This document shows, in pieces, positions 4,996 through 11,270 of a DNA stretch of 64,000 nt; the first letter of the stretch is position 1; every line of letters starts with the position of its first letter. Origin of the DNA: Microbulbifer sp. A4B17. Lineage in GTDB: Bacteria > Pseudomonadota > Gammaproteobacteria > Pseudomonadales > Cellvibrionaceae. Position numbers and translations under genes: made by a program. The stretch is from contig NZ_CP029064.1 of assembly GCF_003076275.1 (NCBI RefSeq), positions 62,001 through 126,000 on the forward strand. The letters run 5' to 3'. The notes under the pieces are model-generated. The model was not told the DNA's origin and did not search any database. It saw only the letters and a list, made by a program, of their open reading frames with translations.

Positions 4996-7734
4996 ATGAG
5001 TAAACAAAACACCTCAGCCGTCCCTTTGATTTTGGTGGATGGTTCCTCCTATCTCTATCGCGCCTTTCACGCTCTGCCGCCATTGACCACCAGCCAGGGC
5101 AAGCCCACGGGCGCGGTGCGCGGAGTGATCAGTATGCTGCGCCGACACCTTAAGGAGCACCCGGGCAGCTCAGTAGTTGTTGTTTTTGATGCCAAAGGTA
5201 AGACTTTTCGCGATGAAATGTTTGCCGAGTACAAATCCCATCGCCCCCCTATGCCTGATGACCTGCGCGAGCAGATCCAGCCTATCCACGACATTATCGA
5301 TGCTATGGGATTGCCGCGTTTGGTGGTCGAGGGAGTTGAAGCTGATGATGTGATTGGCACACTGGCACTGGAAGCCCAAAGCCAGGGTCAGCAAGTCATT
5401 ATCTCTACTGGCGATAAGGATATGGCGCAGTTGGTGCGCCCCGGTATTAATTTGGTTAACACCATGTCCAATACCGAAATGGATAGCGAAGGAGTGGTTA
5501 AAAAGTTTGGTGTCGGCCCGGAGCTGATTATCGATTTTCTCGCCCTGATGGGCGATAAATCTGACAATATCCCTGGAGTTCCGGGGGTGGGCGAGAAAAC
5601 TGCGCTGGCATTACTGCAGAACCTGGGAGGACTGGAGACCATTTATGAGGATCTGGATGCTATTGCACCATTGGGATTCCGCGGCTCAAAAACCCTTGGT
5701 AAAAAAATGGCAGAGCACCGCGAGGCTGCAGAACTTTCCTATAAGCTCGCTACGATCAAAACCGATGTGGAGATGCCTTATCACCCGCAGGACCTGCACA
5801 ATTCAGAGCCCAATACCGAGGCCCTGATTGATCTGTTTACTCAGAATGAATTTCGCGGTTGGCTGGAAGAGTTGAGCAGCGAAGAGGCCGAAGAGGCTAT
5901 GTCGGAAGCCGTTGAGCGCGACTACGTCATAGTGAGGGAAATGGCAGAGTTCGATGCCTGGCTGGAGCAACTCAAAGGCGCAGATATTTTCGCTTTCGAC
6001 ACTGAGACCACCAGCCTCAACTACATGCAGGCAAAATTGGTGGGGGTGTCTTTCGCGGTGGAGCCCTATCGCGCTGCCTATATCCCTCTGGCCCATGACT
6101 ATATGGGAGCGCCTGAACAACTGCCTTTTGACGAAGTACTGGCCAAACTCAAGCCGCTGCTGGAAGACGCGCAGCAGAAGAAGGTCGGCCAGAACCTGAA
6201 GTACGACAGTCACATCCTCGCCAACTATGGTATTGAGTTGCGCGGTATTGCACGGGATACCATGCTGGAGTCCTATGTCCTGGACAGCACCGGCAGCCGC
6301 CACGATATGGACAGTCTCGCACTCAAGTACCTCGGGGAGCACACGGTTCACTTCGAGGATATCGCCGGTAAAGGCGCCAAGCAGCTGACTTTTAACCAGA
6401 TCGAATTGGATAAAGCGGGGCCCTATGCCGCTGAAGACGCAGATATCACCCTGCGCTTGCACAATGAGCTGAGCACGCGCTTGGAGCGAGAGCCGACATT
6501 GGTAAAGGTTCTCGATGAGATTGAGATGCCCCTGCTACCGGTGCTCGCACGTATGGAGCGCAATGGAGCCTATATTGACGCCAAGATGCTGGCAGAACAG
6601 AGTGCGGAACTTGAAAAGCGGATGCGAGAACTGGAGCAACAGGCTTATGAGGTTGCCGGTGAAGAGTTCAACCTGGGTTCTACTAAGCAGCTGGGAGCGA
6701 TTCTGTTTGAAAAGCTACAAATCCCGGTGATCAAGAAAACACCCAAGGGTGCCCCCTCCACAGCTGAAGCTGTGTTGCAGGAATTGGCCCACAACCACGA
6801 GCTGCCGGCGCTGATCATGCAGTATCGCGGACTTGCCAAGCTGAAAAATACCTATACCGATAAACTGCCAAAGATGATCGATCCGGGCAGTGGTCGTGTA
6901 CATACTTCCTATCACCAGGCAGTGGCGGCTACCGGGCGTCTGTCTTCCAGTGATCCTAACTTGCAGAATATTCCCATTCGTACCGAGGAGGGGCGCCGTA
7001 TTCGCCGGGCTTTCACTGTCGACCCCAGAATCAATGGTGGCAGTGAGATTATTGCTGCGGACTACTCGCAAATTGAGCTGCGAATTATGGCACACCTCTC
7101 TGGCGATAAAGGGCTGGTCAACGCTTTCGCCCAGGGTGCCGATATTCATCGGGCAACAGCGGCAGAAGTTTTTGAGGTAGCCCAAGACGAGGTGACTGAT
7201 GAACAGCGTCGACGGGCCAAGGCGATTAATTTTGGTCTGATTTACGGTATGTCGGCTTTTGGCCTGGCCAAGCAGTTGGATATTCCCCGCGCTGACGCTC
7301 AAACTTATATCGATCGTTACTTTGAGCGCTACCCGGGTGTGCTGCGCTACATGGAGGACACCCGCGCCCAGGCGGCGGAGAAAGGGTATGTGGAAACCCT
7401 GTTTGGGCGCCGTCTCTATCTACCGGAAATCAATTCGCGCAATGGTATGCAGCGTCAGGCAGCGGAGCGGACTGCAATTAACGCACCAATGCAGGGCACT
7501 GCTGCCGATATTATCAAGCGCGCCATGATCGCTGTGGATAACTGGCTCAGGGATAAGAATCTGGCTACCCGGATGATTATGCAGGTCCACGATGAATTGG
7601 TTCTGGAAGTGCCTAAAGATGAAGTCGAAACTGTGGCCAATGGGATTGTCGAGCTGATGCAGGGCGCGGCAGAACTGCATGTTCCCCTGATTGTGGATCT
7701 GGGCCAGGGCCGAGACTGGGATCAGGCACACTAA
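4996..7734 (+). CDS. polA: DNA polymerase I
   Basis: 912 residues, close to the usual length for gammaproteobacterial Pol I, with all three domains. The 5'-3' flap nuclease spans about residues 1-290 ([40 protein letters not shown]). The 3'-5' exonuclease begins near residue 330 and keeps the catalytic FDTET motif (Asp335, Glu337), so proofreading should be intact. In the polymerase domain, motif A DYSQIELR has Asp689 and motif C VHDEL has Asp866-Glu867. It acts in Okazaki fragment maturation and excision repair. It is monocistronic here and is followed by a small-RNA-like unit instead of another gene. Confidence 0.98.
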
Positions 7735-8157: not shown

Positions 8158-8265
8158 ATGGAAGTGACTCACACAATTAGTATCCAGCCGTCATCTCAGC
8201 TGCCGGAGGGTAAGCAACCGGCTGACTTTATTCAGATACTGTGGCGCGCTTATGGGCCGTATTAA
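8158..8265 (+). CDS. Possible 35-residue leader ORF overlapping the PRPP-synthetase-like gene
   Basis: ATG at 8158, preceded by AGGGAG at 8141-8146 (spacing 11). It encodes a short peptide beginning MEVTHTISIQPSS and ending at 8265, 14 nt past the ATG of the next gene. The overlap would allow translational coupling for a downstream gene that has no clear ribosome-binding site of its own. No family is recognised. It may instead be chance open frame in the leader. Confidence 0.25.
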   Translation: MEVTHTISIQPSSQLPEGKQPADFIQILWRAYGPY

Positions 8266-9220
8266 ATTATTCAGTCTTGATGTAGGTGCCGATTTCGCTG
8301 GGCGTGTCGCCGCAAGTCTCGGTGAACCGGTATCCCGCCACGAAGAGCGGCAATTTGATGACGGCGAGTGCAAAATCCGGCCATTGGACGATGTAGAGGG
8401 CGCGGATGTTTTTCTTGTTCAGTCCCTTTACACCGACGCCAGTAGCTGTGTTGACCAGAAGCTGATGCGGTGCCTGTTTTTTATTGGAGCGCTTCGCGAT
8501 GCCGGTGCCGCGAGAGTGACCGCGGTCATTCCCTATCTCTGTTACGCGCGAAAAGAGCGGCGCACTAGGCTGCGCGACCCCCTGCCGAGCCGCTACCTGG
8601 CCAGCTTCCTGGAAGTTGCCGGAGTTGATGTAGTGGTGACAATGGATGTCCACTCTCTCCCGGCCTTTGAGAATGCATTCCGCTGCCGCACTGTTCATCT
8701 GGTTTCCTACCCCCTGATGATCGAGGTGGCGCGAATGCGCCTGTCCGCGGACCCCGGCCCCCTGGTTGTTCTGTCTCCAGATGAGGGGGGCATCAAACGT
8801 GCGGAAAAATTTCGCTTGGCCCTCGGGGATCAGCTGGGTGTACCGGTGTCTAGTGCTTTTGTGGAGAAATATCGCAGCGGTGCCCTTTTGAGTGGGGGAA
8901 CCTTGATTGGGGAAGTTAAAGATGCCACGGTCATTATCGTCGATGACTTACTTGCTACTGGCAATACAGTTGCAAGGGCGGTGGAGGCGGTGACAAAAGG
9001 GGGAGCGCGACGGATTTTAGTGCTTTGTGCTCACGGGCAATTCAATCGCGATGCCCATACGACGATGGCGAGACTGCCGGTGGAATCTATCGTGGTGACG
9101 AATTCCCTGCCTCAGTCACAGCTGCAGGGGAATTGTGAATGGGTGGATTGTGCGCCGCTGATAGCCGAATGTATCCGCCGCCTGCACAGCAATGGCCCAG
9201 TGACAGAGTTAACAATTTGA
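8252..9220 (+). CDS. Ribose-phosphate pyrophosphokinase-like protein (PRPP synthetase family)
   Basis: 322 residues with the PRPP synthetase fold. It has a region like the catalytic flexible loop (YARKERRTRLRDP), TMDVHS where the family has TVDLHA, and the PRPP-binding loop VDDLLATGNT in place of the usual VDDMIDTGGT. The predicted reaction is ribose 5-phosphate plus ATP to PRPP plus AMP. It looks like a divergent accessory paralogue rather than the housekeeping prs, because several consensus motifs are altered. Accessory PRPP synthetases are often linked to nicotinamide phosphoribosyltransferase. One such gene exists in this window (53948-55360) but about 45 kb away, so a shared role is speculation. 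It is flanked on both sides by small-RNA-like units. Confidence 0.8.
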   Translation: MGRIKLFSLDVGADFAGRVAASLGEPVSRHEERQFDDGECKIRPLDDVEGADVFLVQSLYTDASSCVDQKLMRCLFFIGALRDAGAARVTAVIPYLCYARKERRTRLRDPLPSRYLASFLEVAGVDVVVTMDVHSLPAFENAFRCRTVHLVSYPLMIEVARMRLSADPGPLVVLSPDEGGIKRAEKFRLALGDQLGVPVSSAFVEKYRSGALLSGGTLIGEVKDATVIIVDDLLATGNTVARAVEAVTKGGARRILVLCAHGQFNRDAHTTMARLPVESIVVTNSLPQSQLQGNCEWVDCAPLIAECIRRLHSNGPVTELTI

Positions 9221-9332
9221 TAAAAACTAACCGCCTTTATTAATAAGAACGTATGAGGCGCCAAAACACGTATTTTGTTTACACTTATTTACTAAAGGCC
9301 TGGGAACCATCGGGGATAGGGATGTATCCAAG

Positions 9333-9414
9333 ATTACAGTTCATTGTTGCTCCCTAACCCCAAAGCGTTTAGCTTTTTCCACCCCGGTTGGTCCCCAACT
9401 CCGGGGTTTTTTTT
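9333..9414 (+). ncRNA. Candidate small RNA / structured 3' end with C-rich segments (second unit)
   Basis: A strong intrinsic terminator, ACCCCGG (9381-9387) pairing with CCGGGGT (9401-9407) and eight T, is preceded by a small hairpin (AAAGC/GCTTT, 9362-9376). Two CCCCAA motifs occur, at 9358-9363 and 9393-9398. It lies 110-190 nt downstream of the PRPP-synthetase stop codon, so it may be the 3' end of that mRNA or a separate RNA. A weak sigma-E-like GGAACC-N18-TCCAAG (9303-9332) would start it near 9338. Confidence 0.4.
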
Positions 9415-9636
9415 ATGCTTCTACCAATTCGCCTTCGCACCACTTATCAGAAAATATTTGATCTTTTGTTCGTAATAAAAAGCCTTTATTGCATTGGTTG
9501 GAATCTACTTCCGGAATAAACACTTTCCGGGGTTTAAGATAAGCCTATCCCGAGTTGGCAAACATGAGTTTGGGAAGCTCGGGGAACCAGCCTAATATCG
9601 AATTGGGTAAAGAAATTGTGGGTTGTAACGAACCCT

Positions 9637-9729
9637 CAGATGCACCCGTCCCCCTGGGTGCATCTGGCAAGTGCCCCACCCCAAGGGCACTGTCCCCTAG
9701 CCGGCAGGCCCCATCTGCCGGCTTTTTTT
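9637..9729 (+). ncRNA. Candidate small RNA with three consecutive hairpins and CCCC loops (third unit)
   Basis: Three perfect stems in a row. An 11-bp stem (9637-9647 with 9656-9666) has loop GTCCCCCT. A 7-bp stem (9670-9676 with 9685-9691) has loop CACCCCAA. An 8-bp terminator stem (9700-9707 with 9715-9722) has loop GCCCCAT and seven T. The linker 9692-9699 is also C-rich. A weaker hairpin (GGGTT/AACCC, 9620-9635) precedes them. The 5' end is not visible; a -10-like TAAGAT sits at 9535-9540. The repeated presentation of CCCC in loops suggests an RNA that pairs with G-rich translation-initiation sites or sequesters a C-rich-binding protein. Confidence 0.55.
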
Positions 9730-9800
9730 ATCTCCGCAATTAACCCTCCGAGTCACTTACAGCGAAAAAACCGTCCCTGGTTATGAATGCTCTTGCAAAT

Positions 9801-9819
9801 GATAATGGTTCGCATTATC
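9801..9819. promoter_or_regulatory. Fur box
   Basis: GATAATG-GTTCG-CATTATC is a perfect 7-5-7 inverted repeat matching the 19-bp Fur consensus at all outer positions. It lies about 33 bp upstream of the GTG start at 9852, where a repressor would block the promoter. The two following genes are therefore predicted to be iron-repressed. Confidence 0.85.
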
Positions 9820-9851
9820 TTTAACGCAAGTCAAATTTGGGGGGGTTACCG

Positions 9852-10310
9852 GTGAATTTACGTTATTTGTGTGCCAACCATCGCCAATGGTTGACCGCTG
9901 ACACGGATCGTGCCGAGAAGGCGTGGCTCGATTGGATGGAGCGCGGCAAGCTTCTGCTTGAAGAGTGCAACTACGCCGAGGCAATTCCCTATTTGGGGTG
10001 TGCCTTTGATCTGGCCAGCTTCCTGCTGGAGAAACAGTGGCCGACTTATGCCATTTCGGCAACGCGCTTTAGTGAGAGCGCCATCTGGTTAATGGCTGCC
10101 TACCGGGAGCTGGGCGATGAAAAACTTCGAAACTACATACTGGCCGGTGCCAGCTCAGTTCTCGCCCGCGAGTTGGGCGATAGCCACAAGCAAAGGGTTG
10201 CAGCGGATTGCATCAGCTCCCTTTATCCCGGAGATACGCAGAAGCAGGTTCGCGACTTCTCCACAGCCAGATTGTCCGCCTGTATCAACGGCGGAAACAG
10301 CTTGCACTGA
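9852..10310 (+). CDS. Fur-regulated hypothetical protein, similar in layout to Pseudomonas OrfX
   Basis: 152 residues, soluble, no signal peptide. The sequence (RYLCANHRQWL near the start, then EAIPYLGCAFDLASFLL) reads as helical and TPR-like. From memory it resembles the OrfX protein encoded with fagA, fumC and sodA in the Pseudomonas iron-starvation operon; this is unverified. I chose GTG 9852 because it follows a run of seven G (9839-9845) at a spacing of 6; the upstream TTG at 9837 overlaps that run. The Fur box at 9801-9819 predicts expression under iron limitation. A small gene follows 13 bp after its stop. Confidence 0.65.
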   Translation: MNLRYLCANHRQWLTADTDRAEKAWLDWMERGKLLLEECNYAEAIPYLGCAFDLASFLLEKQWPTYAISATRFSESAIWLMAAYRELGDEKLRNYILAGASSVLARELGDSHKQRVAADCISSLYPGDTQKQVRDFSTARLSACINGGNSLH

Positions 10311-10610: not shown

Positions 10611-11270
10611 TCAATCCTCGGTGGAGTTGGCTTCTCCTGAGATAGCCAGCCACCCGTTGAGCTTGCGTTCCAATTTATCCAGGCCAGTTTTCTTAGTCGA
10701 TGAGAAAATCTGCAAAGTGACCCCGCGATTCAGGTTTCGCTCCTTGAGGGCCTTTTCCACCGCGAAGCGGGTGTTATTGGCTGGGCCGTTCTTCAATTTG
10801 TCGGCCTTGGTCAGCAGTATATGCACTGGGAGTTCAGCTTCGACCGCCCAGGTGAGCATATGCAGATCGAACTCTTTAAGGGGTTGGCGGATGTCCATCA
10901 GTAGTACCAGCCCCCGCAAGCATCGGCGCTTCTCAAGGTATGTAGCCAGGTGGCGCTGCCACTCGTCTTTCATACTGCGGGCGACCTTGGCGAAACCATA
11001 GCCGGGTAGGTCGACCAGACGCTGTTGGTCGGAGATACGGAAGAAGTTGATCAACTGGGTGCGTCCCGGCGTTTTGGACGTACGCGCCAGCTTGTTGTTT
11101 TCCGTGAGCGCATTGATGGCACTGGACTTGCCCGCATTGGAGCGGCCGGCAAAGGCCACTTCGGCACCAAGGTCCTCCGGACACTCAGTCAGAGTGGGGG
11201 CGCTGGTGAGGAATTGTATGGAACGGTAGTTCAGTTTTGGTGTTTGAGGTTTAAATTCGGTATCTGACAT
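10611..11270 (-). CDS. engB: Ribosome biogenesis GTP-binding protein EngB (YihA/YsxC)
   Basis: 219 residues when started at MSDTEFKPQ (ATG 11270), the expected size. GTPase motifs appear in order: G1 [10 protein letters not shown]2 TPGRTQ, G3 DLPGYG, G4 TKADK, and the SSTKKTG segment as G5. It is an essential GTPase for 50S subunit assembly in the cytoplasm. The frame can be extended upstream to 11501 but that would run into the cytochrome c4 leader and is not used. It is divergent from cytochrome c4 with a 124-bp gap, the same arrangement as in Pseudomonas. Confidence 0.95.

Follow-up and report, generated by a model that had tools for sequence, protein, structure and literature searches.

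A predicted sX13-type small RNA with C-rich hairpin loops lies downstream of polA in Microbulbifer

The closest described counterpart of the RNA candidate reported here is sX13 of Xanthomonas. In passages of the study that describes it (PMC3771888), this RNA has an unstructured 5′ end followed by three stems whose apical loops carry 4C, 4C and 5C, and its gene is located 175 bp downstream of polA. The same passages report that repression by sX13 in Xanthomonas requires these C loops and G-rich motifs in the target mRNAs, and does not require Hfq. Among its tested targets are hfq and pilH, where a 5G motif at the ribosome-binding site is also required for translation, which is why compensatory changes did not restore repression there (PMC3771888, in part). 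The study describes the RNA as confined to Xanthomonadaceae and raises the question of whether the polA loci of other bacteria encode such RNAs.

Other well-studied small RNAs share this neighborhood. The gene for the enterobacterial RNA Spot 42 sits between polA and yihA (engB) in E. coli. According to sections of PMC3771888, Spot 42 is Hfq-dependent and functions in carbon metabolism, and sections of PMC8395346 and PMC7565897 term the Pseudomonas RNA ErsA its functional orthologue. A full-text literature search, whose coverage leaves most subscription journals outside, returned no paper that joins ErsA and sX13, and none on small RNAs (sRNAs) of Microbulbifer.

We analysed a stretch of 64,000 nucleotides from Microbulbifer sp. 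A4B17 (contig NZ_CP029064.1, positions 62,001 to 126,000), hereafter called the window, in which all coordinates are numbered from the first letter. On its plus strand lies polA, encoding DNA polymerase I (4996 to 7734; assigned with Pfam), followed by a gene of the ribose-phosphate diphosphokinase family (8252 to 9220; TIGR01251, 235.6 bits) that separates polA from the RNAs described below. The far side of the spacer is formed by an engB/yihA-type GTPase gene on the minus strand (10611 to 11246, with a presumed start; Pfam MMR_HSR1); in the order, 226 of 234 genomes contain a relative of this gene. Within the spacer, on the same strand as the RNA, is a gene that has no confident family assignment (9837/9852 to 10310). 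A Fur-box-like inverted stretch at 9798 to 9819 (AATGATAATGGTTCGCATTATC) precedes this gene, and similar stretches occur near the RNA in several relatives.

The strength of its predicted fold, its conservation in the genus and its match to the sX13 model of Rfam (RF02232) indicate that the plus-strand stretch from 9605 to 9729 is very probably a real small RNA of ~125 nt, the transcription of which is predicted from the sequence. A weak 5′ hairpin (9620 to 9635), variable within the genus as judged by fold and alignment, is followed by three stems. Hairpin 1 (9637 to 9666) forms 12 pairs closed by the loop TCCCCC, or 11 pairs with the loop GTCCCCCT if its closing G-T pair is taken as open. Hairpin 2 (9670 to 9691) has 7 pairs and the loop CACCCCAA, and hairpin 3 (9699 to 9723) has 10 pairs and the loop CCCCA, with the alternative count of 8 pairs and the loop GCCCCAT describing an identical stem. 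Together with seven T at 9723 to 9729, hairpin 3 makes up an intrinsic terminator (9699 to 9729). The C runs at 9650 to 9654 (CCCCC), 9679 to 9682 and 9709 to 9712 (CCCC each) are unpaired in the predicted fold with a probability of at least 0.99, and the CCCC of the linker (9694 to 9697) is mostly paired.

A preliminary description of this DNA had noted three successive CCCC-loop hairpins with stems of 11, 7 and 8 bp, a C-rich linker ahead of the terminator and a seven-T end. We find the same stems, of which hairpins 1 and 3 can be extended to 12 and 10 pairs, and the same linker and T run, and the arrangement at 9637 to 9729 is well beyond chance. The folding energy of 9600 to 9729 is -62.9 kcal/mol, compared with -41.6 +/- 3.7 kcal/mol for shuffled sequences (z -5.8), and none of 200 shuffles reached a value as low. 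Three separate CCCC-loop hairpins appeared in none of 5000 dinucleotide shuffles, two appeared in 16 and one in 656. On both strands of the window, this is the sole cluster of three CCCC-loop hairpins within 130 nt when stems of at least 7 pairs are considered.

Transcription would start near nucleotide 9605 if the promoter-like pair on the plus strand at 9572 to 9598 is used, which consists of GGGAAG (9572 to 9577) and TAATAT (9593 to 9598). The pattern GGGAA-N12-20-[CT]TANNNT, which was drawn up post hoc from the alignment already inspected, is found at a matching distance in 41 of 47 loci of the genus. A sigma-70 scan yielded no promoter in this region.

Conservation of the RNA is nearly uniform in the genus: BLASTn matched it in 47 of 48 Microbulbifer genomes, and the single miss is a genome that is 80% complete. 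A first sample of 58 relatives gave BLASTn matches in 36 of 37 genus members and in none of 21 genomes from other families. With a search of named genomes by loop pattern, 35 records were matched, 25 of them from Microbulbifer and 10 scattered over unrelated groups, which we read as chance. For covariation we used an alignment of distinct sequences (A1) comprising 46 of the 47 loci, the omitted one having the same core as another. Two-sided changes are present in 14 of 29 pairs (74 cells), compared with 5.9 pairs and 18.7 cells in shuffles, and sliding the partner by 1 to 3 columns leaves such changes in at most four pairs. These changes fall in 8 of 12 pairs of hairpin 1, 4 of 7 of hairpin 2 and 2 of 10 of hairpin 3, and RNAalifold recovers 27 of the 29 pairs. 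At the stem ends, 19 sequences leave the outermost pair of hairpin 1 open, and 43 do so for the innermost pair of hairpin 3.

The loops behave differently from one another. Loop 1 (GTCCCCCTGG) is invariant in 46 of 46 sequences, and loop 2 keeps CCCC in all 46, one of which carries an inserted A. The linker reads CCCC in 43 sequences and CTCC in 3. Loop 3 has CCCC in 27 of 46; the remaining 19 sequences carry GCTGCAATC instead (A1 columns 97 to 106), with loops 1 and 2 intact, and may belong to a clade in which one loop of the three was lost. The preliminary description had staked its proposal on compensatory stem changes among relatives and on loops that keep CCCC. The former are plentiful, and the latter expectation is borne out for loops 1 and 2 and fails for loop 3.

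It had also stated that no named family has such a layout, which does not hold, given that sX13 shares the layout and that its Rfam model matches the RNA over its full length, below the cut-off. A comparison of the whole window with Rfam at Rfam's own cut-offs produced no match. At lax thresholds, RF02232 matches 9627 to 9728 over the full model with 40.7 bits (gathering cut-off 50; E 7.2e-7 for 151 bases), and the highest sX13 score seen in the genus, 43.4 bits, is still below 50. At E <= 0.01, the sX13 model was found in 2 of 4 Microbulbifer loci and in 0 of 6 loci from other families.

The reciprocal comparison employed a Microbulbifer covariance model built from alignment A1. Run on 22 loci, it recovers each of the three sX13 genes that score above the cut-off (E 7e-5 to 1e-3), within 3 nt of the RF02232 placement, and yields 5 additional matches in 4 loci, each of which adjoins polA. 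It detects nothing in L183, L185, L186, L187 and L033, which are polA-adjacent loci that RF02232 had matched, and nothing in 8 loci that lack polA, in the E. coli Spot 42 locus or in the ErsA locus L121. In 400 kb of its own chromosome, the model scores its own RNA at 120 bits; a further match has E 0.088, and the tandem unit described below has E 0.69. Among 57 engB-upstream loci of the order (Microbulbifer excluded), 7 matches have E < 0.003 and 2 more have E < 0.03, and all 9 are on the strand opposite engB; one of the seven, in L071, is separated from engB by ~3 kb, and polA falls outside the sequence of that locus. Genome searches with RF02232 gave matches below the cut-off, 6 of 12 of which are near polA among 369 genomes of the class, as are 3 of 5 from outside the genus among 244 genomes of the order, with the rest located elsewhere. 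The class-wide search also matched 1 of 14 control genomes, below the cut-off. Both searches are insensitive, since they missed the window's own genome, in which they scored only 14 and 9 of ~320 candidates, and their misses therefore carry little meaning.

A second C-rich small RNA candidate lies in tandem upstream on the plus strand (9335 to 9414, with a presumed start). It is preceded by GGAAC (9303 to 9307), itself downstream of a GTTTACACTTATTTAC box (9277 to 9292), and it ends in a terminator (9381 to 9414) whose loop contains CCCC. A comparable terminator is present in 44 of 47 genus loci. Alignment A2 covers 27 of these 44 (the 17 omitted loci include those with long insertions), and within it neither GGAAC nor the CCCC in the loop of the terminator varies. 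No convincing Rfam family emerged for this unit, the best match of interest being Spot 42 with 18.4 bits over 9305 to 9415 (cut-off 80). In two genomes from one other family of the class (L184 and L189), there are five and four GGAAC-type elements in the polA spacer, and the parts of the spacer inspected show C-loop hairpins in repeated copies. These spacers possibly hold a tandem array of such RNAs, and multiplication of the unit may therefore be recurrent.

A count that does not rely on a covariance model agrees with the crowding near polA. We counted CCCC-loop hairpins in the engB-upstream loci of the order, leaving out 8 of 59 loci that had no engB match. Two entries, L074 (10 bases) and L142 (a 60-base placeholder), were left out of the analysis. 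In the 23 loci where polA lies beside engB, there are 17 such hairpins on the polA strand and 0 on the opposite strand, with 1.1 expected by shuffling; 15 remain in 22 loci when the one Microbulbifer locus is removed. At least two hairpins are found in 6 of 23 loci (5 of 22 without Microbulbifer; 0.05 expected), and 13 of 23 have none. The 28 loci without adjacent polA contain 10, with 3 on the other strand and 1.4 expected by shuffling. An element of the form GGAAC-N16-18-[GT]TC occurs on the polA strand in 8 of the 23 loci and on the other strand in 1; this element resembles sigma-E/sigma-22 promoters. A match to a microRNA family in L068 was taken as chance.

Other known RNAs resemble the Microbulbifer RNA to a lesser extent. 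ErsA (RF01719, 107.3 bits) follows polA in L121 and thus shares the polA-engB spacer, and its terminator loop is likewise C-rich. However, RF01719 has no match at E <= 5 in 9200 to 9860, and ErsA acts together with Hfq and requires sigma-22 (PMC8395346 and PMC7565897, in part). The promoter-like pair of the Microbulbifer RNA is of the form GGGAA...YTANNNT and not clearly of the GGAAC-N-GTC type; a GGAAC-type element precedes the upstream unit. Spot 42 (RF00021) shares the location between polA and yihA/engB, and its model does not match 9605 to 9729. Two further weak similarities over 9638 to 9729 were set aside as likenesses of C- or G-rich stems: on the minus strand SraC/RyeA scores 29.7 bits (cut-off 37), and on the plus strand SdsR/RyeB scores 20.6 bits (cut-off 38).

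To find candidate targets, we compared gene starts across three Microbulbifer chromosomes, using the first 400 kb of each; 122 of 135 ortholog triples were scanned. Within -20 to -2 relative to the start codon, GGGG is present in all three orthologs of 3 of 122 triples and GGGGG in 2 of 122, and one of the latter two encodes a response regulator. Another response-regulator gene precedes it, and genes for a CheW-domain protein, a PilJ-domain MCP and an Hpt/histidine kinase follow. We take this cluster to be pilGHIJ-chpA and the gene to be pilH. In Microbulbifer, where 47 genomes matched, 30 of 30 loci that were read have GGGG at the ribosome-binding site of this gene; among loci read from the order's other families, the run is present in only 14 of 26. 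Among four C-rich pieces of the RNA, loop 1 gives the best predicted pairing with the pilH leader (-13.0 kcal/mol). There are two weaker target candidates: A63 carries GGGG and looks by eye like a glutamate synthase, and A234 carries GGGGG and belongs to the cytochrome c family. Three of the six scan hits (A227, A257 and A265) were rejected, as their G run follows the start codon and by eye reflects coding sequence or misplaced starts. For hfq, a G motif was found within -40 to +45 in 0 of 30 Microbulbifer loci, which speaks against it as a target shared with sX13. Because it is not unusual for a ribosome-binding site to have a G run (15 of 122 in the genome of the window) and hfq lacks the motif, pilH is a lead and not a proof.

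The Microbulbifer RNA therefore resembles sX13 in its three stems with C4/C5 apical loops, its last-placed terminator, its length of ~115 to 125 nt, its position downstream of polA on the same strand, the reciprocal match of covariance models, and a run of G at the ribosome-binding site of pilH. It differs in that its score falls below the Rfam cut-off, its host belongs to another order and not to Xanthomonadaceae, an extra gene separates it from polA, a second C-rich RNA stands in tandem, hfq has no G motif and loop 3 is not C-rich in 19 of 46 sequences. Since anatomy, locus and one candidate target are alike and the cut-off for membership in the Rfam family is missed, we consider sX13-type to be the best designation. 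Common ancestry of the two RNAs is likely.

We assign a probability of roughly 0.72 to the interpretation that 9605 to 9729 is an sX13-type trans-acting sRNA whose C loops pair with G-rich ribosome-binding sites and lower translation. The fold, the constancy of loops 1 and 2, the model matches, the polA locus and the GGGG of pilH are observed features of these genomes, and from them we infer transcription and its start, pairing, repression and descent shared with sX13. In this scheme, the RNA would end at its own intrinsic terminator and display its C4/C5 loops on three stiff stems. Where a target mRNA is rich in G at its ribosome-binding site or close to it, the loops would pair with it over a short length, as a kissing contact or a seed, and a site paired in this manner would be hidden from the ribosome, resulting in less translation. 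Loop 1 (GUCCCCC) would be the leading seed, and the mRNA of pilH, a response regulator of type IV pili, the leading target.

An sRNA with the same action could have arisen independently, with the model matches reflecting the convergence of C-rich loops and a terminator at a locus prone to sRNAs. C-loop RNAs are indeed known from unrelated bacteria, and sections of PMC3771888 list S. aureus RNAIII, H. pylori HPnc5490 and the alphaproteobacterial alpha-r7. The sX13 match below the cut-off and the failure of the Microbulbifer model to detect ErsA and Spot 42 at the same locus also fit this idea. However, convergence accounts poorly for reciprocal full-length matches with the same order of hairpins and a shared linker, or for the intermediates that other families hold at the same locus, and so we regard an independent origin as unlikely.

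More improbable still are two proposals that dispense with mRNA pairing in trans. The repeated loops might titrate a CCCC-binding protein, as Csr/Rsm RNAs do CsrA, and the recurrence of one motif in the loops of freely varying stems is a feature that such a sponge would have. The preliminary description had drawn this analogy. Its view of a regulatory RNA with a repeated loop motif is supported, but the analogy is not, as GGA has 0 occurrences in 9605 to 9729 and nothing in the sequences points to a titrated protein partner; a Csr-type sponge is rejected for its lack of GGA. Loop 3 is moreover dispensable in 19 of 46 sequences, and we know of no CCCC-binding regulator of the kind that sponges titrate, leaving a protein sponge of any type with very little probability. 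We give equally little credence to a cis-acting leader, attenuator or plain terminator of the gene at 9837/9852 to 10310. This gene follows the RNA closely in the same orientation, and hairpin 3 forms a terminator, yet the gene has its own Fur-box-like stretch past that terminator (9798 to 9819). Relatives of the gene were matched only in the window and in Microbulbifer L125 when 59 engB-upstream loci and the window were compared, whereas C-loop hairpins are found in many of the others. A mere terminator is also a poor fit to invariant loops on varying stems.

Beyond the sX13-type reading for Microbulbifer, the polA-engB spacer of Gammaproteobacteria might be a single ancient small-RNA locus, a proposal that we consider less likely than not. 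In this conjecture, envelope stress would have driven a single C-loop RNA that blocked G-rich ribosome-binding sites; sX13, the Microbulbifer RNAs, ErsA and perhaps Spot 42 would be its descendants, and pilH would be an old shared target. Tandem multiplication would have happened more than once, giving Microbulbifer its two units and two genomes from another family their four or five promoter-like elements.

The question of whether other polA loci encode an sX13-like RNA can now be answered with yes for Microbulbifer, and probably so for several other families. The comparison brings RNAs that were named separately to one gene neighborhood, and it points to pilH as a concrete candidate target in a marine genus.
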